Source: Cloeon dipterum
Taxonomy: Eukaryota; Arthropoda; Insecta; Ephemeroptera; Baetidae
Direction of reading: 5' to 3'
Length of the DNA: 64,000 bases
Assembly: GCF_949628265.1 (NCBI RefSeq)
Contig: NC_088786.1
Location: 14,756,001 to 14,820,000 of the forward strand
In this document: piece after piece, positions 28,830 through 64,000 of the stretch
Layout: every line of letters starts with the position of its first letter
Position numbering within the stretch: position 1 is the first letter of the stretch
Made by a program: the position numbers and the translations under genes
The notes under the pieces: generated by a model
What the model was told of the DNA's origin: nothing
The model's database searches: none
What the model saw: the letters and a program-made list of their open reading frames with translations, nothing else

Positions 28830-29260
28830 CAAGCCCGTTGGCTCGCATTGTTAAGGCACTCTCAGGAGTGTCAAAGCAATGAGAGGTATTTGAGCAGTTC
28901 GGAGATCTAATACTGGCTACCCAATGTCAGAAATGGCAAAAAGTGGTTAGTTTAGTGACTCGAATTGCTCAAATTGCTCAACGGGCTGGGAGGCGCACCG
29001 GCGCCGAATCGCTACTTGCTGGTTTGCACCTTTCCAGCATGCGTGATTTGGCTTCACGGGACAAATGTCTAGCGTTTCAATGCAGTCCTCGGTGCGGAGG
29101 CAAGTGGCCCTTCAGTGGGCTGGGTCCCTGTGCGGCCTGGTGCGCCCATGTTATCCGTTCGCGGTGTTATTGGGACCCGGGTTTCAGCATTCGTGCTAGT
29201 GCAGTGCGCGCCCTTCCCGGTCCTCCGGTCCTCGGACAGGGATAAAAAGAGCAAAAAAAA
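28830..29260 (+). repeat. SINE-like interspersed repeat, copy 2 (full length)
   Basis: Best complete copy of a roughly 430-bp repeat family. It starts AAGCCCGTTGGCTCGCATTG, contains a small hairpin (CACTC TCAG GAGTG) and an internal CAACGGGCTGG that is the inverse of its own start. It has a GC-rich 3' half and ends GGGATAAAAAGAGC followed by an A-run. An A-rich 3' tail, variable 5' truncation between copies and lack of coding capacity fit a SINE or the 3' end of a LINE. An apparent 100-codon ORF inside is not a gene: it is disrupted in the other copies. Confidence 0.85.
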
Positions 29261-29978: not shown

Positions 29979-32768
29979 ATGGATCTCAAAATCAAATTCA
30001 GTGAGTCGATAGAAAAACTTTTCATTCACGGGAAATGTGAATGGATAGGTTGCAAGGCAGCTTTCAAAACCTTTGACGAGTTCTGCGAGCATCTGCAATC
30101 GGTTCATTTGTCAAGTGAAAGGTAACATATAACTGATTTCTTATGTTGTCGTTCCTGTTTTCTAATGTCCCTGGACGTTGCTTTTATAGTTTAAATATGA
30201 AATTTTTTGTTTAATCTTCCACAAATATTTGTTGTTGACAATGTTATTTCAACTCTCATCATGTGTACAACATAGTTGCATATACTTTACTTCAAGCAAG
30301 TGCCTTTTTTAATTGTAAAATCACGTACCCTGGTGGTGTTTTCATGTACACTATTTGCACGGGGGAATCAGGTCATCCTAGGATTTGTGTATGAGGTCTC
30401 AATTAATTTAGGGCTGTGACCCACCAAATATTAGATTTTCAACTTTTCTTTGAAATTTACTAGATTTTTTCTTTTTGATTGTTAAAAGCCCAAACATATT
30501 AAGTAAAAAAGAAACATAACATTCCCAATTTTCCTTATTTTCAACAATTTTTTTCCAAACAAGCACTATTTTCAGTGTAAGAGACAAATAGTAAATGAGA
30601 CGATGTATGGATAATTGATTTAGTACGCCAAATTATATGAAAACGAAAACACCTAATTCATATTGTCAAAAATATTTTAAGCCTCTTGTATATGGAGTGA
30701 CTAGTTGTAAATTTAAAACTATACATATAATTAGGGCTGTGAAAATTTAGACGATCAACTATTTTTTTCTGAGCATCAAATCATCATGGAACCATCAAAT
30801 GAGCACGAATCATGCAATTTTAAGCCATTTAAACCAAACTTAGAATTATCTAAATCTGCTAAAACCGTCTAAAGCGTCTAAAACCGTCTAAAACCGTCCA
30901 AAGCTCGTTATTTTTTTTTAGTTTGAAACAAACATTTCCTATACTCTATAAGAAGAGTAAATAAATTAAAATGTATCAATAATTGCTCATTTCAATCGTT
31001 TTCATTTATTAGAGGGAAATTACGTAAGTTAGATAACATTCGCACTTACTTTTAGTTTAAATTGTTTTTAGTAATTTAAAGCCATCGTGCCCCATCATGA
31101 ACTCATCTGCAAATTCAATCTATTGCAAGAAAAGTCGAAACTCGATGGCGCGTTTTCTCTGCTCAATGGAACTATATTGTTTTGTATCTTTTTTTTTTAT
31201 TATATATTCAGTGTGTTATTACGCTATTATTGAAGTGACTTAGTTTTTTGAGTCAATAATTTTAAAAATTGACAAACAGAAGGCACAAACACTCAAATCA
31301 TATGTAGGGCTGTGAAATTTAGATGATCGACTTTTTTCTGAGCTTCAAATCATTGTGGGGACCATCAACTGAGCATGAATCATGCAATTTTAAGCCATTC
31401 AAACCAAATTTAAAATCGTCTAAGTCTTCCAAATAACCGTATAAAATGGACTAAATTGGTCATTAAAACCATTTAAAATGGATGAATATTTTCTCAAAAA
31501 CCAAGACCGTCTTTTTCACAGCCCTATAATGGTTAAAGCTGTTACGGGTTCCGCGCTTCCTGGCGACGCCAGCATGTGCGGGAACCTTTTTGCTATGATT
31601 CGGTTTTGGTCTATGGGTGTTTTTTTAATTCTAACAGTCTTAATTTTACTGTTGTACATCTTTGTATTTATGATTAATTGTAATAATTAATGTAGATAAT
31701 CAAGATTAACATAGATAACCATCACTGGGTTCATTTCACTGTAGCTTTTGATCCCTTTTATGCTACTATATGTACATAAAATGTGCTCTAATAAAACAAA
31801 ATATATAAAAATAAATAAACCATTAATTCATTTTTAGATCTCAATGCGATTTGATTGCCCAGGAAAGAGTTGTGACCCAAGCGCAAGATCATTTGAACAT
31901 TGAATCAGACCGGCTGGAAGCTATGAAAATCATTCTTTCCAAGGTACAATGTTATGAAAAGACAGCAACAGAGAAGCAAGGAAACAAGTTAATTACCAAC
32001 CTCATCGAAATATATTTTCAACATAATGCGGCCGCTGAAGCTCTCTTGCAAGCGTATCAAAATAACCCAACCCGTTCAAAGCTTATGCCAACAGTTGTAC
32101 CCAGCCAAAGTAAATTAAAACCGTTTTCAATCGACACAACTGCAAAGATCGACGAGCTCAATTCGAGGGCGAAACCACAAAAAACATATGCTGAGCTTAT
32201 CAAAGAAGCAATCGACTTGTCGCCGGAAAAGCAGCTATCACTGAACGATATCTACAACCATTTTGAAAACACTTACAATTACTATAAGACCAACCAGCAG
32301 ACTTGGAAAAACGCAATCAGGCACAACCTTTCTTTGCACAAGTGCTTTAAGCGAAAGGAGGTACAAAAAGGTTCCGTGTGGATAGTGGACGAAATAGAGT
32401 TTGCGAAACGGCAGACCAAGGGTGCGAGGTACAGCACCGGGCCTTTCAGAGGTATGAGCGATAGTCCAACCTGTTCAGATGAGAACTGCGAGGGCGAGTC
32501 TATAAATTGTCCATTCAATAAGGAAAAGATGGAAGAGGAACGGATGATGACGGAAAGCGGAGCTCAAATTACCGCCACTCTCTCTTTGGATCAGAAGGAT
32601 GAACTCAAAGTCCAGTCAATGGAGGATGATGATGCTGGAAATAAAATTAGCAGCAACAGTGACACCAATGGCAAACAGAATTCCTTTGTTGTGGAGAATG
32701 GAGACAAAAACCAGTATTCTAAAATTATTCGTTTAAACAAAGATATGGGCACAGTCATGGCGGCATGA
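29979..32768 (+). CDS. FoxP-like: Divergent FoxP-type forkhead transcription factor, 2 exons
   Basis: Exon 1 (29979-30121) and exon 2 (31838-32768) join in phase 2 and encode about 357 residues. Exon 1 carries the FoxP C2H2 finger (C20-x4-C25 ... H38-x4-H43, beginning KLFIHGKCEWIGC). Exon 2 continues directly into the FoxP leucine-zipper region (SQCDLIAQERVVTQAQDHL) and then a forkhead domain at about residues 158-245. The DNA-recognition helix WKNAIRHNLSLHKCF is intact, as is GSVWIVDE of the wing. This finger-zipper-forkhead order is diagnostic of FoxP proteins, nuclear DNA-binding dimers mostly acting as repressors. Oddities: the usual R-P-P-F/Y-T-Y entry to the forkhead reads AKPQKTYAEL; there is no glutamine-rich N-terminus; zipper, forkhead and acidic C-tail share one exon. 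That suggests a fast-evolving or partly retroposed paralogue rather than the main FoxP gene. A possible poly(A) signal is at 33339. Confidence 0.88.
30731..30905 (+). repeat. TIR-element copy (left part) in the FoxP-like intron
   Basis: Begins AGGGCTGTGAAAATTTAGACGATC and parallels the left half of the element at 31309-31525 (shared ATCATGCAATTTTAAGCCATT). It then runs into a short tandem of CTAAAACCGT units at about 30860-30900. No matching right terminus is seen, so it is truncated or part of a larger composite reaching 31525. Confidence 0.65.
31309..31525. repeat. MITE-like element with AGGGCTGTGAAA terminal inverted repeats
   Basis: Left end AGGGCTGTGAAATTTAG at 31309 and right end TTTTTCACAGCCCT ending at 31525 are inverted repeats of about 12 nt enclosing 217 bp of non-coding DNA. 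The same AGGGCTGTGA word occurs at about 30412 and 30732, and its complement TCACAGCCCT at 32771, so the FoxP locus has been hit several times by this family. Confidence 0.65.
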
Positions 32769-39005: not shown

Positions 39006-40531
39006 ATGGAGCCGAGACAATCTGACTTGCAAGAAACTCAAAACGAACAATTTGAGAGTCATGGAACACAATCTGCAAGTGGATCCAAGTTTCTGATGGC
39101 AAAGTTGGTCCTAGATGAGTCACCACAGTTATTTCCTGACGAGTATCGTAGTCAAGTTTATCAGCCCCCACATCGAAGGTGGTCAGCATTTTCGCCTTCA
39201 AGAGCTTGGAAGTACAACTCTCCGTGGTCTTGGAGAGATGAAATAAGGTATCAGCCCCAGACCTTGAAGTCAATCGAGGACACCGTGGAAAACTTAAGGG
39301 TTGTCTCGCAAAAGTTGAGAGAGCAGGTTTTATCCATCCAAAGCTATGTTCTTAACAGTCAGAGAACAACCAACAAAGCTGAGAATACCAACGCGAGAAT
39401 GGGACTCGACCTGGTTCACGAGAAGCACTTCGAGTTGGAGATGGAAATAAAGAAACTGAACATCGAGATAAACGAACTGAAGCAAAGGAACTTCTCAAAT
39501 GACCTCGAACTGGCTGGCATTCCGCAGTGTGGCAACGAGAAACCGATCGATAAGCTGGACAAATTGGCACGGATCATAGGTGCACCACCCGTTTCAGTCT
39601 CTGTTACAGACGCGTTTTGGCTGCGTAAGTCAGGATATGGTGGACAAGCAGGACCCAGCCTTTTGGTAGTCAAGTTTTCTTCAGCAAGCTCAAGGGAGGT
39701 CTGGCGAAAGAATAGGAAAATTTTGCAGGTCAGAAATATAACATTTCGATTTTAAAATAGGTCCATATTGAAAACAAATTTACAAATTTAATAAATGATA
39801 ATATATAAAAAATGAAATTTCATAATTTATATTGTTTTTATGCTAACTGATGCTAACATTTAAAATCATTAACTTCACCAAATGAGAAAATATTTTGTTC
39901 CAAATTAATTTTTCTGTCGTTTTAGTTGGCCTTAAAGTAACACAATAATAACAAAATCGCTGCTCTGCTAACCAGCAATAAAAATTACTTAGAATCTAAA
40001 ATACCGTTATTTGGTTAGTTATAATATTACACATAAAATGATCAAGTTAGATAAATATATTTATTCATTAAACACCAATGGTGTACAACTACACAATTAT
40101 TTACGATTTTTATTGAGCAAATCGGGTTTCAAATAAATGGCAAATTTCATCGCTAATTAACAACTGCACAATCATCTTTTCAATTTTTATTTTTAATTTG
40201 GCTTAATTGTTCAACAATTTACCAACAGGAATTGACATGGCGGGATGATTGTGACTGTCCAGAGCAGCTGGATAATTTATCTGCGCCTCCAAGATACCGT
40301 CTAAATCGACCAAAATGCATAAAAGTTTATGAGAGACTCACCGCTTTGAACAAGAAATTGTTATTCTATACTCGCTGCGCAGCTAACATGTATGATTTTA
40401 AATGGGTTTGGGTGAGTAATGGAAACATTCTGGTAAAGCGTTATGACGAGAGTGAATGTATCAAAATCCGCTGCAAGGAAGATGTGGCCGAGAAAATTAT
40501 AGATCCAGTAAGAAAAAACCGAAGATATTAA
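39006..40531 (+). CDS. FP25K/retroelement-ORF1-like coiled-coil protein, 2 exons
   Basis: Exon 1 (39006-39728) and exon 2 (40229-40531) join in phase 0 and give about 341 residues. The N-terminal 90 residues are Ser/Gln/Trp-rich and unrecognised. Residues about 90-165 are a coiled coil (ending EMEIKKLNIEINELKQRNFS). It leads into LELAGIPQCGNEKPIDKLDK, a central segment with PSLLVVKFSSASSREVWRKN, and a C-part with LTALNKKLLFYTR and FKWVWVSNGNILVKR. This order (coiled coil, N-x-(L/V)-E-(L/I)-x-G-(I/V)-P, VKF...R..W, LT..N..L......YK(W)VW..NG.I.V+) is that of the FP25K-like family. It is known from baculoviruses and, abundantly, from ORF1-like proteins of insect retroelements. The intron, intact frame and lack of an adjacent reverse transcriptase suggest a host-retained copy. 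Possible roles are nucleic-acid or protein binding. Confidence 0.7.
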
Positions 40532-54193: not shown

Positions 54194-54313
54194 CAGCCCG
54201 TTGGCTCGCATTGTTAAGGCACTCTCAGGAGTGTCAGAGCAATGGGAGGTATTTGAGCAGTTCGGAGATCTTAATACTGGCTACCCAATGTCAGAGATTG
54301 CAAAAAGTGGTTA
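54194..54313 (+). repeat. SINE-like repeat, copy 3 (5' fragment, plus)
   Basis: CAGCCCGTTGGCTCGCATTG through GCAAAAAGTGGTTAG, matching the first 120 bp of the family. It stops where the inverted copy 4 begins. Confidence 0.8.
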
Positions 54314-54728
54314 GTTTTTTTTACTCTTTTTATCCCTGTCCGAGGACCGGGAAGGGCGCGCACTGCACTAGCACGAATGCTGAAACCCGGGTCCCAATAA
54401 CACCGCGAACTGATAACATGGGCGCACCAGGCCGCACAGGGACCCAGCCCACTCAAGGGCCACTTGCCTCCGCACCGAGGACTGCATTGAAACGCTAGAC
54501 ATTCGTCCCGTGAAGCCAAATCACGCATGCTGGAAAGGAGCAAACCAGCAAGTAGCGAGTCGGCGCCGGTGCGCCTCCCAGCCCGTTGAGCAATTCGAGT
54601 CACTAAACTAACCACTTTTTGCCATTTCTGACATTGGGTAGCCAGTATTAGATCTCCGAACTGCTCAAATACCTCTCACTGCTTTGACACTCCTGAGAGT
54701 GCCTTAACAATGCGAGCCAACGGGCTGG
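54314..54728 (-). repeat. SINE-like repeat, copy 4 (full length, minus)
   Basis: Reverse-oriented, nearly complete copy running from the complement of the A-rich tail (TTTTTTTTACTCTTTTTATCC) to CAACGGGCTGG at 54728. Its internal ORF is the same artefact as in copy 2. Confidence 0.85.
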
Positions 54729-55223: not shown

Positions 55224-56422
55224 CTAGGATTCCATGCTTTGGTTATGACGAGCTCGAGGTATGCAATACAATTCCATGTGTTTGTCCTTCTTGAGCTTGA
55301 GATTGAATTTTTTGAAACAAATATCGCACTTGAATGAAGAGTCTTCGCCGCTCAATTTTAAGTTTTTCTGATTTGAGTGCTTCCGTTTCTGATGTCTGAG
55401 GCAGTTTGATTTAGTTGTAAAGCTCAAAGGGCAAAACTTGCAACGGAACGGTTTCTCTCCTGTGTGAACCAGTATGTGTCTTTTCAGCGAACTGGTCCAG
55501 GGAAACGTGACTTTGCACACGGGGCATGCTACTCTGTTGGGAGCTCTTGAGTATGCGCTTGTTTTAGCTCTCTTCTCTTTTCCTTCACGTTCTTCACTTT
55601 CATCCTCATCGGTGCTATGGATGATGGTATCGACGTAAAATGCAGCCCAACCATTGGAATCTTCAAAATCTTCCTCAGAAGTTATAGATTCATTACACTC
55701 ATCTTCCTCTCCAGCAGATGAATTAGTAATTATTTTTTCATCCCGCCACCCTGATGGAATCATAGGGGTGTCTTCACTTCTAGCCAAATCTAAAAAATAT
55801 AGTTTTTTTAAAGATCAGCACCAGATAAAGGTAATTGAAAATTACAAAATGGCTTGAAAATTGTTTAAACAGCAAATATAACATATATTAACTTACCAGC
55901 TTCGGAAGCCACCAGATACTGATTAAGAAATGGTTCCGGATTCCAAATAGGAGGGACACCCCTGCTTAAATCTGCCTGCGCCATTTTGGAAATTAAGGCC
56001 AAGAGCATTGAGGAGTTTTGCATGATAGGCGTCAATACTTGGTCCTTCCCCGCAGTTTGCACTACTGCTTGCGGAGTCGAATTTTTCTCAGGTGTCTGTT
56101 CGTTTTCAGTGAGCAATGAAAGAAGTTGCTCTTCGCTGGTGATTGCGTGAGTTTTGAGCAAGTGCCTCTTGCAGTTGGATTTTGTGGAGAAGAAATCGTT
56201 ACAAAGTCCACATTTGTACGGCTGGTCCCCTTTGTGGGTTCGAATATGACGCTGCAAAACGACCTTCTCGTTGCAGATGAAGGGGCATATGTTACACTTG
56301 TACGGTGGACTCATCTTCATGTGGTCTTTGGCATGGCCTCTGAGTGCACGTAAATTGGGAAAGACCATTGAACAAAGGAGGCATTTGAATTCGTACCGAA
56401 CGCCAGCTGTGGAGATGTCCAT
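55224..56422 (-). CDS. C2H2 zinc-finger protein, hindsight/RREB1-like
   Basis: Two exons, 56422-55897 and 55789-55224, joined in phase 1, encode 363 residues. The ATG is in an ideal context (CCACCATGG). N-terminal fingers are FKCLLCSMVFPNLRALRGH, YKCNICPFICNEKVVLQRH and YKCGLCNDFFSTKSNCKRH. A Ser/Gln/Pro linker and an acidic segment (GEEDECNESITSEEDFED, DEDESEEREGKEK) follow. Then come VACPVCKVTFPWTSSLKRH, a TGEKPF linker and FRCKFCPLSFTTKSNCLRH, and a last degenerate finger (FKCDICFKKFN...H...C). The F-P-W-x-S-S-L-x-R-H finger followed by a (T/S)KSNCxRH finger is characteristic of RREB1/hindsight (pebbled) transcription factors, nuclear regulators of epithelial differentiation. Those proteins are usually much longer with more fingers, so this is a short relative or a partial paralogue. 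A candidate upstream 5' UTR exon ends with a strong donor at 57260. Confidence 0.83.
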
Positions 56423-59307
56423 GGTGGCTTGTACCTGTTGAACGAATGATAGTAAAATTATTTTCACTTGGCCTCTGCTTAAAAGTCATTAGCGTTAAGA
56501 GCTGTCACAGCTTACAGTTAAAATATCATAACAATTTTAAGATGAAAACAACTTCAGTATTTTCCATCTCAAAATCATGTTTACGCGCGAAAAGAGATTA
56601 TGAAAATAACAAAATATTTTTAGTCTCTTTTATATAAATGATGTTTAAAACAAAACATTTAAGAAAATTTCCTATTTTGGAGGTGAGAATTTTCTGTTGG
56701 CTTGTAATTGAATATTATTTAATGAAAACTATACATTATAGACGCTAAAAATGTACAGACAAAATAAGTAAGGATATTTCAAAACCTTCACTGCTCGTTT
56801 TTACTCAGCACCTTGAGACAGAGCACAAATTTAGTGACAAAACTTTAACATTGGTTTTAATTTAACCCATGTAACAAATTGGTAGCTTTGAAATTTAAAT
56901 TTGTGTATTTAAAAGGAAAGATCAGTTTTGTTAGCAATCTTTGGTGTTTCTTTTTAAATTCATGCTTGTTTTCCGCTTATTGTAGCTTTCCTTTGAAAGG
57001 TGTATCAAAGCAAACCTTTTATTCTGATCTACAAGCGTAATCAACATTTTCACAGTTGTAATAATAAATATTTAGCGTGTAAATTTGAACTTACAGAGTT
57101 TTAAAACTGTAAGGACTGTCTGTGACAGCTAACATGACCGCTGAAACCATGTTGAGTTAAAGTATTTTGGTTTTAAAAACCTAATGCGGTACTGAATAAT
57201 TATGAAACAAAGAGGCTATTCAACAACTGTGGTGATCCTTTATGGATATAAATACTCACCTTTGAACCCATTTACAGCGAGCGCAGGAACAAACTTCTGC
57301 CTTGGCCCAGTAGGTTTCAACTGCAGAACTGGAAGGCAGTGGATATGAGGTTGAGAAAAGGAAACCTTATAATACCACAAGCACTAATTATATATCTAGG
57401 AGGTTTGAGAGCAAAAGTCACTTTTGATTGGAGTTTGATTACCACGTGACCATCCAGAATCTTAAAAATATTATTGTTCTGGTTGTTTACGCGGCGCAAA
57501 GAGAGAAGAAAATAACAAAATTACAAAGGAGGTAACTCTGATCACGTAAACAGTTGTGAAATATTTATTCTGAAATAATAAATCATGTGCTCAAATTTAT
57601 TTGCTTTATTTTGTATGAATTCTTCAAGATGAATCAACCCTCTCTATGAAGTGATTTTAAAACAAATTTATTAAAAATATCATGTGAAGAGCAAGCTCGC
57701 AAATGAAATTCGTTGCTCAATTGACTTATTTTTATTAAGACACCACTCAACGAAAAAATTATGAATGTAAGAAGCAGAGCATTCGACCCCAAATGTCAGA
57801 AACTCAGAGAGAAAATAGAGTAAAATACATGACTTTTTAATCGAATTTATATGCAAATGAGGTCAGCCAGCAGCTCTGTGGAGTACCAGCCGACAAATAT
57901 TGGTTAGAGCCACCGAAATTTTAACTGTAAGCTGCGCTAGCCATTGATCAAATTTACTAAAAAAATGAATACAAATTTAAAATTAGATAGGTGAATAAAT
58001 TTGAAGCAAAATCAAATTTCACTCTCAAAATTAGTCAGTTATTCATTTATTGGACACCGTCGATGTACGAATCAATTAAATTTTTTTTCTTATAACAGGA
58101 GATGCTTGAGATATAGTGAATTCAGTAAATTTGATGGACTTCTCAGGTCATCATCAGACAATGCTGACCTCAAATACATTGTTGACATCAGCATGCACGA
58201 CACAATGAAGACTGAATCGTGTATATAAGTAGCGCAAAATATCGTCATTAAAAAGTGGAGTCGATATAGGTGTAGTTACTGCCACCTGATAGCGTTAAAC
58301 TTTACCCTGAGTTCACCTGTGCGCGGGTCTTCGTCGCTGGTTGTCGCTTGCAAAGTCACATTAAACACCTTTGCCCACATAGGCATATATAATAAATGCT
58401 GAACTTTTCACATTATTTTCTAATTTCTTCTTGTTTATTCTTGCCATGTCATATACATAAAGTACAAATAAAATCAAATATCAAATTAAGCAAGAAAGGG
58501 CGAACAGCACTAGCGAAAAAATGCTATAACGATCAATCACAGGGTAATATCACGCCGCACTGTGCCGCAAATCACACATTTTAAACACTAATCACGATCA
58601 TTGTGCACTTGCCACAAGTACTTTTTACAAAGGAAGGGAAATTCAGCTACTTCTAATATTTAAAGTTGAACTTTTAGAAATGAAACAATGCTCAATATTG
58701 CGCTGTACACCGCAAGAAAAAGAATTAAGAAGAAAAACATTCAATGTTTCAAAATATTGCGTTCTCTGAAGTTCTACGACCACATGCATGCGCGAGTATA
58801 TTATGATTTACTCGGATTTACTGAGAAAAATGGATATCAACATGAGCTTTTGACTGATTTCGAGAGTTAATCGTTTATTACTGTTTATTGCTCATTTCAA
58901 TTATGTACATGCATATATAATTAAGATTAATGAACAATGGCAAAAAATGATAAGCAGGATCTGCATAAACGCTCGAAACAAAAAAATTGATTCGTCGTCG
59001 TCACGTGCCGTAATACGATGATTTAAACTCAGCTTTGCTTGACGAGTAATAAACACGTCTGAAATGATAATGTATTTGTCAAGAAGTGAAGTTGGATTCT
59101 TTTGACGTACGTATTGACATTTATTACGATAGTTAAATTAAAATCCGGTGTTTTTTCATTGCGTATCATGTTTTTTTTTATTTTTCCTTAACAATACATA
59201 AAAGTGTTAATGATCATAATGCTGGACAATTGTTTCAAATCAAAATTTACCTGATTACAAATAAAAGCTGAACAACCAATCCGAACATGATGGATTGACC
59301 CTCATAA
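56423..59307. other. Upstream/intergenic region with possible 5' UTR exon
   Basis: On the minus strand, CAAAG followed by GTGAGT at 57260 could be the donor of a non-coding first exon of the zinc-finger gene, whose coding exon has an acceptor at 56435. The rest is AT-rich. An ORF around 58001-58228 and another at 58688-58870 are short and unrecognised. Minus-strand AATAAA words near 58880-58890 could serve the gene that stops at 59308. Confidence 0.4.
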
Positions 59308-61284
59308 TCAGAGATTTGTGGAGGGCAGATTATACTGCAAATAGTTAGAGATGAGTCGCTCGAAAGCTCGAATCTGCTCGGCAGCCTTTGCACTGCACTG
59401 CGGCCGCCTCCTCCTAGAAAATTTGTCTGCAGGCTCGGGGCGGCGTCCAGCGGGGTCGCGGGTCACGGCGGTCACTGGAGCGCGTGGCTCGGCTGAAAGT
59501 GAGCGTACAGATGGACTGCGACGCTGCTGCGCCTGGCGTGCCGCCTTCCGCACGACCTGCATAGCAAAATCACGCCAGTCGTAAGCAGGATGTCCGCATT
59601 GACCAAAACAAAAGAGTTTGTTTTGGAAAGTACAGGAATTACATATTGAATTCTAAACTCTACGCGAGAGGTGAGTTATTGCAAGAAAATAATATAAATA
59701 GGATAAATATTAATAGACCTGCTGGTCCTGGTCGAGATAGGCGAGGTCAAAAATGGAGTCTTGAGAGCGGCTTCGCCGTTTTGAGGAAACACGGATTGTA
59801 TTGAGAAAGTTGTGGAACAACATTCGGGAACCACTTAGCGACAGCGACTTGCGCAGCTTTGGCCGACGTCCAGCGCCGCCAGTTTGCCCGGCCGCCAGCT
59901 CCGGCGTCGAATTCGCCAAAGCCATCGACTTCCTCGAGCGCTCCGCCGCGCCTGTAAGATGTTCTTATTTTCAACCGATTTCCAAACATGCAGTGCGTTC
60001 ATTAGTGGAAGCAATGCTATCGAACGAATTTGAATTTACAACATTCAATCTTGAGCAAAGTTTAGTTGTAATAGTGAAATGGTTGAAATTTACATGGACT
60101 AAAATGGGCGATAGGGGGTGTTGCAAGTTGTCCGAAAAGATTTAGTTTGAAGTGTCAAAATGGACTTTTCCGAATTACTGGAAATTGTCCAAAAAATGGA
60201 AGATATCCTAAAGAAACTTTTCTGAAATGAAAGTTGTCCGAAAGGAATTTATTCGCAACGGAAATAGTCCGAAATTTAAGTGTTCCTTCAGTAATGTAAA
60301 CTAAGTGAGGATAGGAGATGCGAATGAGAATTTTTGGATGAATTCTTTTCGGACAACTTTCAATTGGGTGTTTCGGACAAATTCCGTTTTAAACGTTCCG
60401 GACAACTTGCTAGCTCCCAACGAGTAGAAGGCCACGAACCTCTACTGGCGATTCCCTTTTCCGCCTCTTCCTTCATCGAGGCAAGCAATTCCAACAGAGT
60501 TTGTCGCGCCGTCTTGTTGTCCACACGCCGTTGCGTTGCAATCCGCTGAAATAAGTTGATAAAAACTAAATATCAAAGTTTTTCTGGAAAGCCATTTTCA
60601 ATGGGTGATTTCCCTCCCCAAAACGCAGTATTTCCTCTGTGCTGGAATATATCTCACTATAAAACCTTGTTCATTCGATTTTGCCAACTGAGCATAAAGT
60701 TTCATACTAGAAATGTTGTAAAAATTTATAGGAGCTTAGTTGAAATAAAATTTTAAAGGTGGAAGTTTTAAGTATCGAGGATAAAGCCGGTTTTATTTAT
60801 AGTTTGTATTAATAATATAATATGATTGAACAACAAACATTGAGTGTCGACATTCTAACTCAGAAAAATTAATACATTCTAGTTGGAGAAAAAAGAACAA
60901 GATTTGTTTTAGTTGATTGAAAACTTGAATTTAATATTTATCTTTTTCTAGCAGAAAACAGTTTGTTGGGTGCTCTCATTTTCTTTGCTATTTATTTTCT
61001 TATATTAACCGAGCAAGACAATTTCTATATTAAAATTTTGTGTGCAATGTACATAATTATTAATATTAAATTACCCTTTGCAAGTCTGCATTACGCCTCT
61101 TCAGCACGGAAACGTCGGATATTCTTGCGTCAAAGCGGCTGTGTTGACCGATAGCCGCCCTTTTAGCCGTGCTTACGTCCCAACAATCGATGGCAAATTA
61201 CTACAATGCTGGAAATCATGCACTGAATAGATTTTACCTCCTGGGGCGGAGCTGCTGGCCAGACGGCGGCTTCAGCTGCGACAT
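59308..61284 (-). CDS. Basic Arg/Ser-rich protein with a short coiled coil, 239 aa, 5 exons
   Basis: Exons 61284-61238, 61159-61075, 60545-60440, 59951-59719 and 59556-59308 join in consistent phase to exactly 240 codons, ending in TGA. The N-terminal part (MSQLKPPSGQQLRPR) is followed by a helical segment (DVSVLKRRNADLQRRIATQ, TARQTLLELLASMKEEAEK). A Ser/Arg-rich middle has many basophilic kinase-type sites (PKLRKSLSLSGSR, SSKRRSRSQDS). A second basic helix (VVRKAARQAQQRRS) and a Leu/Tyr-rich end (AFERLISNYLQYNLP) complete it. No known domain recognised; a cytoskeletal or nucleic-acid-binding regulator is conceivable. The transcription start is probably near 61307 at a TCAGTT initiator. A TIR element sits in the third intron. 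The acceptor before exon 2 is pyrimidine-poor, making that exon the least certain. Confidence 0.65.
60123..60410. repeat. TIR element in an intron
   Basis: Left end GCAAGTTGTCCGAAAA and right end CCGGACAACTTGC are inverted repeats around a 288-bp element. Its interior repeats TTGTCCGAAA/TTTCGGACAA words in both orientations. No coding capacity. It lies wholly inside the third intron (59952-60439) of the minus-strand Arg/Ser-rich gene. Confidence 0.75.
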
Positions 61285-61303
61285 CCTCGCTTACACTAAA
61301 CTA

Positions 61304-61409
61304 AACTGATCGGACGCTTATCTGAATTGACGCTTATCGTGAGTTGCTCATCGCACCGCCACACACACGCCAAAATTATCGAAATTATGGCCATGCACGT
61401 CCGCTTATC
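61304..61409 (-). promoter_or_regulatory. Initiator plus three GATA sites
   Basis: On the minus strand a TCAGTT initiator (61309-61304) lies 20 nt before the ATG of the Arg/Ser-rich gene. Three GATAAG words at 61322-61317, 61338-61333 and 61409-61404 lie just upstream. Clustering within 100 bp of an arthropod-type initiator suggests GATA-factor control, as in gut or fat-body genes (inference). Confidence 0.45.
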
Positions 61410-62143
61410 AGCCAGTGAGGCGTGGCGCGTGACTGCAATCGTAACTAAACAATGCGGACAGCTCCTTATTTATACAAGCTCACATCACTTTGCCTATAAT
61501 TGAATCTTCGGTTCGTTTCTACAGTCTCATTTCAATCCGACAAGCTCACTGAAAAATTGTATACATTTTAATTAAAATAAATTGTGATCATTGGCCTACT
61601 ATTACATGTGACGTGTGTTTATTAAAATTTTCCCAGTCATTTATCAGGCTAAATTGCGTTTTTAATGGAATTAAATTCTTATATTTGTATTTTTAGGCAT
61701 GCAGCGCATTTTTAAGTGAAACTAGGGTATTGACAGATGTTCGAAAAATGAGAAGAGTGCGTCCATGATTAATAAGCATATAATTTTTCCAATGAATTAT
61801 GCATGGTACAACTTATTTTTCAGGAGCAAGTATATTGAAAAGGTGTTGTTTTTTATTAAAGCAAATTGAGAATGAAATGAAAAAAATAGTTAAAAATGTT
61901 ATATAATAAATAAAAAATAAAACTCCTATCCACTTGCTACTAATAATCAGTTTGAAAGAGCAATAATTTAGCCAGGAAAGGTGCCAGAGAGAAATGCTAA
62001 TGATGTAATGATAATAATTTGTCGTATTTATGGGATATATGCCTAATAATTTTTTCTGTTGAAGAATGAAAAGTGTATAGCGAAAGATTTTATATATTAA
62101 GCAAATCATAGTCCAATTAGTTTAACTAGTCGATTAAACCATG

Positions 62144-62149
62144 TTTATT
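62144..62149 (-). terminator. Poly(A) signal of selenoprotein P
   Basis: AATAAA on the minus strand begins 17 nt downstream of the SECIS basal stem and 220 nt after the stop codon. It places the SECIS at the end of the 3' UTR of the same transcript and separates it from the next gene. Confidence 0.65.
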
Positions 62150-62165
62150 TTGACCGTTGCAGGGA

Positions 62166-62235
62166 GCGAACATTTTAACATCAGAAATTCAGCTTCCGAC
62201 TAGGGTTTGGCCGAGTTCGTCATACAGATGTTCGC
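62166..62235 (-). promoter_or_regulatory. SECIS element of selenoprotein P
   Basis: Read on the minus strand: a basal stem GCGAACAT (62235-62228) pairs perfectly with ATGTTCGC (62173-62166). A short internal loop is followed by the core ATGA (62223-62220), matched on the other side by TGAT (62183-62180), which supplies the non-Watson-Crick GA/AG quartet. Above it is a helix of GAA-T-CGGC against GCTG-A-TTC (one mismatch and a bulge allowed). AAA lies 11 nt after ATGA, followed by a possible CC/GG mini-stem, as in form 2 SECIS elements. This element in a eukaryotic 3' UTR recruits SBP2 and the selenocysteine elongation factor so that UGA is read as selenocysteine. It lies 134 nt beyond the TAG stop of the selenoprotein P frame. 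Confidence 0.85.
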
Positions 62236-62368
62236 TTATTGCAACTGTCGAGTAAGAGCATAATTATAGATCGACTTAAAGGCTGAATCCGAGATAAGGG
62301 CGCATCCAGTTAAGCTGGCGCTGTTTTCTCTGCTCTCTTTCGTCTGTGTCGATTTCATTGCTGTTTGT

Positions 62369-63172
62369 CTATGATACAAAAAGGTCCGCATTACAAAACG
62401 TGCTGTGAAACGATCGAGCTTTCACCTCAGTAACATTGGTCAGGGTTTGTAAAATAGGCAGCACATCGTCAACGCTGACTGTGTCCGCGGGAGCAGCTTT
62501 TATCCCAAGTTCTGAACCTTGAGAGCAGCTGCCGCAAGGTTGATCTTTCGAAGTGGCTAGGATGGCCGCCTTCACGTAGGCTAGGTGCAGTTGGCTCCAG
62601 GGCAGGCTCAAGTGGAAGGTCACACGGCCGCACCTGGCAAGAGACAAGTGAAAATTTTTACTTTTTTTCTAAGTCTTCTGTTACTTGTCAATGATGAGAA
62701 TGTCGTCCTTGCGACCCTTGACCGACGCCCAGTCTCGTCCATTACCTACGAGCACGCGCATCTTTAAATTAAGACTAGTGGTTTATGTCGACCAAATACC
62801 CTGGATGGTGATAACCTTGCGTCCTGCTAGGTTCCTCAGATGATCAAACTGGTTCTTCGACCACGGATGGTCTTCGTTAATGACTATGAAAACTGGTTTC
62901 TGCTCGACGGCGGCACTGTCTTCGAGGCGAAGCTGAAGGTTTTGCAACCTACAAATGAGGTGGTGAGGAATATGCGAAAGGTTAGGGTGGGAAAAGTACT
63001 TGACAGCCTGCCTCTGGCACATTCCTCAGCTGGCGTCTAGCAGTGCCACCACCAGCACCTTCTGGCCGACTCCAAAGGGTTTCACCTGCAGATCGCTGGG
63101 CGCTGGTGAACATAGGTCAGCGGCCAAAACGACGCAAACCTGCAGAAGAACGCTCAACAACAACTTGTTCAT
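62369..63172 (-). CDS. SelP: Selenoprotein P (secreted, thioredoxin-like; in-frame TGA = Sec)
   Basis: Exons 63172-63000, 62948-62800, 62745-62685 and 62633-62369 are joined in phases 2, 1 and 2 across introns of only 51-54 nt. With TGA at codon 49 read as selenocysteine the product is 215 residues ending at TAG. A signal peptide (MNKLLLSVLLQVCVVLAA) marks it as secreted. The thioredoxin-like domain has VLVVALLDAS-U49-GM-C52, then QRQAVKLQNLQLRLED, FIVINEDHPWSKNQF, DWASVKGRKDDILIIDKCGR and VTFHLSLPWSQLHLAYV. A CGSC pair follows at about 161-164. Order and motifs match selenoprotein P throughout. In vertebrates SelP carries selenium in plasma and its N-terminal U-x-x-C is a redox site. This version lacks the C-terminal Sec-rich and His-rich region. 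The SECIS at 62166-62235 and a GATAAG word upstream (63222-63217) complete the gene. Confidence 0.92.
63026..63028 (-). other. SelP: Selenocysteine codon (TGA) of SelP
   Basis: The TGA follows VVALLDAS and precedes GMCQRQAVK, exactly where the selenoprotein P family has its N-terminal selenocysteine. Coding similarity continues unbroken on both sides in the same frame and exon, so it is a recoded codon rather than a stop. A simple ORF caller splits the gene here. Confidence 0.9.
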
Positions 63173-63698
63173 CACGCGGCGTGAATTACACTGCGTCGCA
63201 GCTCTAGAACTCAAAGCTTATCGGTTGAGGTCGAGGGCAAAGAGGCCGCGTGACCTCAGCAAGATATCATCATTATTTGATGTTTTGGAAAGATCTTGGT
63301 CGTTTTCTAAAGAATGCAAGTGTTGTAAAAATAACAAAAACAATGTCAATGCAATTTGTACTAGATTTTAATGTTTTAACTGATATAATATTTATATACT
63401 TAACCACACTCACACTAATCATTTAAGTGGTCATAAAAACAATTCCTATATTTATAAAATATTAACGCGCGTAAGTGCATATGAAGAAAACATATATTAT
63501 ATAACAAATTTTTATTTTAAATCTCTGTACGAATTTGGGTCAGTTAATTAATACAGTATCATCAAATTCAACAAGACGTCTTGAAATTTATTGTTGAGAC
63601 TTATCGTAATGACTTGGAGTTTATTTGAACCATCTCAATTGCTGTGTATAAGTGTTGGGGTTGAAACAGGTTTTTTTTAAACTAACAGTAGTATTTTA
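63173..63698. other. SelP upstream region
   Basis: Contains the presumed SelP promoter, with a minus-strand GATAAG at 63222-63217 about 45 nt before the ATG. The rest is AT-rich with nothing recognised until the repeat at 63699. Confidence 0.45.
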
Positions 63699-64000
63699 CC
63701 AGCCCGTTGGCTCGCATTGTTAAGGCACTCTCAGGAGTGTCAAAGCAATGAGAGGTATTTGAGCAGTTCGGAGATCTAATACTGGCTACCCAATGTCAGA
63801 AATGGCAAAAAGTGGTTAGTTTAGTGACTCGAATTGCTCAACGGGCTGGGAGGCGCACCGGCGCCGACTCGCTACTTGCTGGTTTGCACCTTTCCAGCAT
63901 GCGTGATTTGGCTTCACGGGACGAATGTCTAGCGTTTCAATGCAGTCCTCGGTGCGGAGGCAAGTGGCCCTTGAGTGGGCTGGGTCCCTGTGCGGCCTGG
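63699..64000 (+). repeat. SINE-like repeat, copy 6 (runs off the window)
   Basis: CAGCCCGTTGGCTCGCATTG onward, very close to copies 2 and 4, cut by the window edge at GTCCCTGTGCGGCCTGG. High similarity to the other copies suggests recent activity of the family. Confidence 0.85.

Follow-up and report, generated by a model that had tools for sequence, protein, structure and literature searches.

A selenoprotein P gene on the minus strand

A selenoprotein P (SelP) gene lies on the minus strand at 63172-62276 of the window, meaning the whole 64,000-nucleotide stretch of Cloeon dipterum DNA that was analysed. It has five exons and four GT-AG introns, the latter 51-57 nt long, and yields a spliced product of 227 residues. 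Exon 1 (63000-63172) starts with an ATG at 63172 and encodes a hydrophobic N-terminus, the putative Sec codon and the U-G-M-C motif. Exons 2 (62800-62948) and 3 (62685-62745) are defined by the spliced frame and by alignment with the public C. dipterum protein P0001. Exon 4 (62426-62633) carries the block CGRVTFHLSLP, the CGSC motif at residues 161-164 and the N-glycosylation sequon NVT at 194-196, and exon 5 (62276-62368) encodes the conserved tail QRQLNWMRPYL followed by the stop codon TAA at 62278-62276.

The public protein P0001 is identical, letter for letter, to residues 51-227 of this product. As all four introns fall behind residue 51, P0001 is concordant with every splice: the spliced product equals it across intron 1 (62949-62999, 51 nt), and agreement holds across intron 2 (62746-62799, 54 nt), intron 3 (62634-62684, 51 nt) and intron 4 (62369-62425, 57 nt, GTGAAA...TCATAG). 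An earlier note on this DNA, made from the letters alone, had proposed four phase-consistent exons and three introns encoding 215 residues. The introns do preserve the frame throughout, but the counts require correction. Intron 4 had been taken as coding, and because it was read through, the earlier model ended at 62369; its terminal stretch ...VKARSFHSTFCNADLFVS and its stop at 62371-62369 fall inside this intron. With the last exon placed at 62368-62276, the product reaches the TAA at 62278-62276 and has 227 residues. Both P0001 and P0002, a protein of the mayfly Neocloeon triangulifer in which the corrected last exon is also present, support the model of five exons and four introns. Apart from the TGA at codon 49, the five exons contain no further stop or frame break.

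The expectation that standard annotation would miss the selenocysteine is borne out by two NCBI mayfly models, one from C. dipterum and one from N. triangulifer. Both are named selenoprotein P-like and begin at the Met two residues past the Sec codon, so that the N-terminus and the Sec residue are dropped. The locus illustrates a concrete annotation fault. A second public SelP model from C. dipterum, P0003 (135 aa, from a contig of 67,765 bases), starts out of frame and differs at a few residues, perhaps because it comes from another strain or a cryptic species.

The Sec codon and its context

The in-frame TGA of codon 49 occupies 63026-63028 on the minus strand, at the Sec position of a U-x-x-C site, and corresponds to the Sec column of vertebrate SelP. 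Read in the direction of the gene, from 63028 to 63026, it is followed by G-M-C; the earlier note had likewise placed it at codon 49 in the U-x-x-C position. It is the single TGA of the whole product. When Cys is put at the Sec site, the spliced product matches the Pfam family SelP_N at 101.2 bits (E 7.2e-29), far over the curated cut-off of 23.2 bits; the match spans residues 38-173, so that SelP-like sequence does flank the TGA on both sides. P0001, which is without residues 1-50, still scores 79.9 bits. This SelP_N match is the sole one in the C. dipterum assembly.

Alignment with the SelPb protein of Xenopus tropicalis (P0096) gives 39% identity (60 of 154 aligned positions; pairwise E 3e-31) and leaves the Sec site ungapped. 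The context of the site reads KVLVVALLDAS-U-GMC in the mayfly and KVTVVALLQAS-C-GFC in Xenopus SelPb, and nine of the 11 residues preceding the TGA are identical. In an anchored test, the 11 open codons preceding each TGA in the window were compared with five vertebrate SelP 11-mers: the codon-49 context ranked best of 1289 at 9/11, the runner-up reaching 5/11, and shuffling the upstream segment 200,000 times never gave nine matching residues. This test was devised after an unanchored phmmer comparison of the 31 residues upstream of the TGA had proved weak, with a best score of 4.6 bits that was reached by 12 of 300 shuffles.

The Sec site could be located by a simple pattern in 24 of 117 non-mayfly proteins among the matches listed. 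Among these 24 sites, again from the matches listed, five read C-x-x-C, three W-x-x-C and 16 something else; the W-x-x-C proteins look as though Trp had been put in for TGA, and the 16 other readings are probably gene models that bypass the site. A search of PDB sequences with the mayfly protein returned no match better than E 0.049.

A SECIS-like element downstream of the stop codon

A SECIS in the 3' UTR had been claimed, with no position given. A SECIS-like element is found in the 3' flank at 62165-62236 on the minus strand, running from 62236 to 62165, beyond the earlier gene model, around 40 nt past the true stop codon and about 580 nt from the Sec codon in the mRNA, as summed from exon lengths. 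Its fold comprises a helix I of 9 bp (62236-62228 pairing with 62173-62165), an AUGA/UGAU core (ATGA at 62223-62220, TGAT at 62183-62180), a helix II and an apical loop with AAA (62208-62206) 11 nt after the AUGA.

By a descriptor that was composed after the element had been seen and that had no positive control, the element ranks first of 371 candidates in the window (minus strand 196, plus strand 175), with a score of 16.4 against 14.2 for the next. When the 1-kb 3' flank was shuffled 1000 times with dinucleotides preserved, 16.4 was never reached, and the best score was 14.8. A blind search of 60000-64000 for inverted pairs returned seven, the outer stem among them, and the element folds with a z of -3.3, a stability equalled by none of 200 shuffles. 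The Rfam model SECIS_1 aligns over 64 of its 64 positions, at 20.9 bits and E 0.043 in a search of 121 bases, a sub-threshold score given the cut-off of 35. Among the Rfam scans the match appeared only in that one: no SECIS was reported in 60000-64000 at E 1 or in the full window at the gathering threshold, and a genome-wide SECIS_1 search gave no match in C. dipterum and was equally silent in the control genomes.

Elsewhere in the window

Three stretches of the window are alike in translation (QKWQKVVSLVTRIAQ...AGRRTGA.SLLAGL): 28883-29242 on the plus strand, 54274-54675 on the minus strand and 63812-64000 on the plus strand, the last resembling the others, in its listed frame, only from VSLVTRIAQ onward. 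They are probably copies of a dispersed repeat, one of which lies upstream of the SelP gene. At 31827-32765 on the plus strand, an open frame encodes a Forkhead domain (E 9e-25), and two open frames at 55227-56485 on the minus strand encode C2H2 zinc fingers. The stretch 40157-40528 on the plus strand matches the Pfam family 'Baculovirus FP protein domain 2' (E 3e-13) and is perhaps of mobile-element origin.

Selenocysteine machinery in the genome

A full-length tRNA-Sec gene with the anticodon tca is found in the C. dipterum genome at 75.3 bits (cut-off 47), together with three additional matches to the family, all under the cut-off. Matches to this family occur in all 14 control genomes, in five of them above the cut-off; the evidence therefore consists in the full-length 75.3-bit match and its anticodon. 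The elongation factor eEFSec is detected at E 2.6e-28, with GTPase-like stretches at its locus and no match in the control genomes. SepSecS is represented by five neighbouring stretches that cover model positions 1-312 of 389 (best E 2.3e-27), a search in which three of the 14 control genomes match too.

An SBP2-like gene was recovered at E 2.6e-6, with 35% over query residues 32-94 and one TAA inside; a flanking exon, read by eye, leans towards SBP2, although the gene may be either SBP2 or SBP2L. The family PF01248 has eight matches in six genes of the genome. These were rejected as SBP2, as the six genes read otherwise: they look like RPS12, NHP2, SNU13, RPL30, RPL7A and RPP38, and the SBP2-like gene emerges only through the SBP2 query. 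The full Sec machinery attributed to this lineage is thus found in part, as tRNA-Sec, eEFSec, SepSecS and an SBP2-like gene; the proposed search of the genome for tRNA-Sec, SBP2 and eEFSec recovers the first and the last, with SBP2 as a short SBP2-like match.

Other candidate selenoproteins

Two further genes with stops inside their matched stretches were considered and rejected as selenoproteins. The GPX gene at C1:29816040-29816398 contains one TGA, which apparently lies in an intron; its motif VNVASKCGLT presumably marks a Cys form. The Rdx-family gene at C2:11597258-11597500 contains one TGA and one TAA, both apparently intronic. Its motif SGTCGHKAQF is presumably that of the Cys form of SelW/MIEN1, and we take the gene to be MIEN1/SelW-like. 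It is the one Rdx gene found in the C. dipterum genome, and its product ends in CIIS. Matches to the MsrB (SelR) and Sep15/SelM families are present, with no stops within the matched stretches. A search for SelK (PF10961) gave no match in the genome, the controls being silent as well; SELENOK is described as highly divergent in insects in a passage of PMC12822975.

With GPX and Rdx read as Cys forms and SelK not found, Sec use in C. dipterum may be slight. A rich selenoproteome is not supported by the Cys forms of GPX and Rdx.

Readings of the in-frame TGA

The locus is best explained as a real selenoprotein P gene whose codon-49 UGA is decoded as Sec, a reading to which we assign a probability of about 0.92. 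A UGA in a conserved insect frame need not specify selenocysteine: for insect SPS1, readthrough without Sec has been argued (PMC4561486, PMC2500217), and the SPS1-UGA genes resemble mayfly SelP in having a conserved in-frame UGA. An ordinary tRNA might likewise read the mayfly codon. However, the account of the SPS1-UGA genes in PMC4561486 describes them as being without a SECIS, whereas mayfly SelP has a SECIS-like element close behind its stop. The presence of tRNA-Sec and eEFSec in the genome, and the position of codon 49 in the Sec column of SelP, further speak against such readthrough, which we consider very improbable. A marginally smaller chance still is given to a decayed or mis-sequenced Cys-form SelP in which a nonsense mutation or an error produced the TGA. 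Public annotation, by taking the TGA as a stop and starting translation downstream, agrees with this view, but the five exons are otherwise intact, and the protein is 67% identical to that of Neocloeon over the shared part. The Neocloeon model, moreover, also has this Met as its first residue, which is in line with a stop codon at about this position in another species, and a SECIS would be needless for a Cys gene.

A further possibility accepts Sec decoding and is compatible with the preferred explanation: the protein might serve mainly in selenium transport despite its one Sec. Transport is the role of the SelP family in vertebrates according to PMC8744743, and the single SelP_N match in the genome is in keeping with it. 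Against this stand the lone TGA, the failure to match SelP_C and the few selenoprotein clients seen among the few families checked, and we regard a mainly transporting SelP as unlikely.

Comparison with vertebrate proteins and possible role

The closest parallels are the frog SelPb-like proteins, which share with the mayfly product the SelP_N domain, the G-x-C that follows the Sec site, another C-x-x-C, a short length and the lack of a Sec-rich tail; the C given at the Sec site of these proteins in the database may stand for Sec or Cys. Frog tails differ in being longer and dissimilar, whereas the mayfly protein ends in the conserved QRQLNWMRPYL. Human SELENOP is about 33% identical in the N-terminal domain and has U-x-x-C in the same place. 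Vertebrate SELENOP differs in possessing a Sec-rich C-terminal domain (as outlined in PMC8744743) and two SECIS elements (as given in PMC8230778), whereas in the mayfly a single Sec codon and a single SECIS-like element were found. Neocloeon P0002, compared as protein, has an equally shortened database start.

Sec insertion at UGA 49 by way of the SECIS is the most likely mode of decoding, judging from the sequence. The element, in the presumed 3' UTR of the SelP mRNA, would be bound by SBP2, which would recruit eEFSec and Sec-tRNA(Sec); through this recruitment UGA 49 would be decoded as selenocysteine. The N-terminus MNKLLLSVLLQVCVVLAA, hydrophobic as judged by eye, would direct the product into the secretory pathway, and the one N-glycosylation sequon, at N194, stands at the same position in Neocloeon. 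The SelP_N domain is thioredoxin-like. Within it, U49-x-x-C52 would form a redox pair, with a second C-x-x-C at 161-164. Together, U-x-x-C, the second C-x-x-C, the hydrophobic N-terminus and the sequon point towards a secreted redox protein.

The Sec-rich C-terminal domain SelP_C (PF04593) has no match in the product at E 0.1. One Sec and no SelP_C match make a bulk selenium carrier unlikely; without a Sec-rich tail, the protein most likely works as a secreted thiol/selenol oxidoreductase and carries little selenium, if any. The balance tilts, if modestly, towards a redox rather than a carrier role. The tail QRQLNWMRPYL (62276-62330, minus strand) is identical in Cloeon and Neocloeon, the linker preceding it is not, and it follows basic residues; it may serve for binding or for processing.

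Selenoprotein P in insects

Insects have undergone repeated selenoprotein loss. The earlier note had considered the gene notable if its host were an insect, and the host is indeed one: the mayfly C. dipterum, order Ephemeroptera. The literature sets the frame for this occurrence. SelP is called rare in invertebrates (PMC3473315), and arthropod Sec losses have been mapped (PMC5330540). Many selenoproteins are held to have been lost at the base of Insecta, as put in PMC4244043, and mayfly SelP is not part of that basal loss. The pertinent statement of PMC8744743 is that SelP was lost in most, not all, insects, so that published work already implies its retention in some. PMC2500217, which covers the insects fully sequenced by then, tabulates SelH, SelK and SPS2, and neither 'SelP' nor 'selenoprotein P' occurs in its main text; for Paraneoptera, MSRB1, TR, SPS2, GPXx and SelenoK are named in PMC7376646. 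The main text of the C. dipterum genome paper (PMC7250882) contains no 'selen-' word. No dedicated paper on mayfly selenoproteins was found, by listed title, in the open-access literature searched. In their treatment of SelP evolution, Baclaocos et al. 2019 reportedly noted a single UGA in certain insects, and mayfly SelP may already be tabulated there.

Database searches delimit the known distribution. A broad protein search returned 333 matches, and the proteins named by species among the best 120 of the 333 were three mayfly proteins and vertebrate ones. Searches based on the mayfly protein, at E 0.001 and at E 10, retrieved only the three mayfly proteins, and C. dipterum and N. triangulifer ranked first in a protein search with mayfly SelP. 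What appears to be new is a mayfly SelP with a Sec codon and a SECIS-like element; the family itself was already known.

A more far-reaching, and doubtful, proposal is that baetid SelP was once a selenium carrier and has become a secreted redox protein with one Sec and a conserved basic tail, kept as one of few selenoproteins in a genome where GPX and the SelW-like protein are Cys forms, and possibly a main reason why the Sec machinery persists in these aquatic insects. With this gene, a naturally single-Sec SelP is available in a species put forward in PMC6446309 as a new model insect. A mayfly SelP with both a Sec codon and a SECIS would mean that SelP was still present when winged insects arose.
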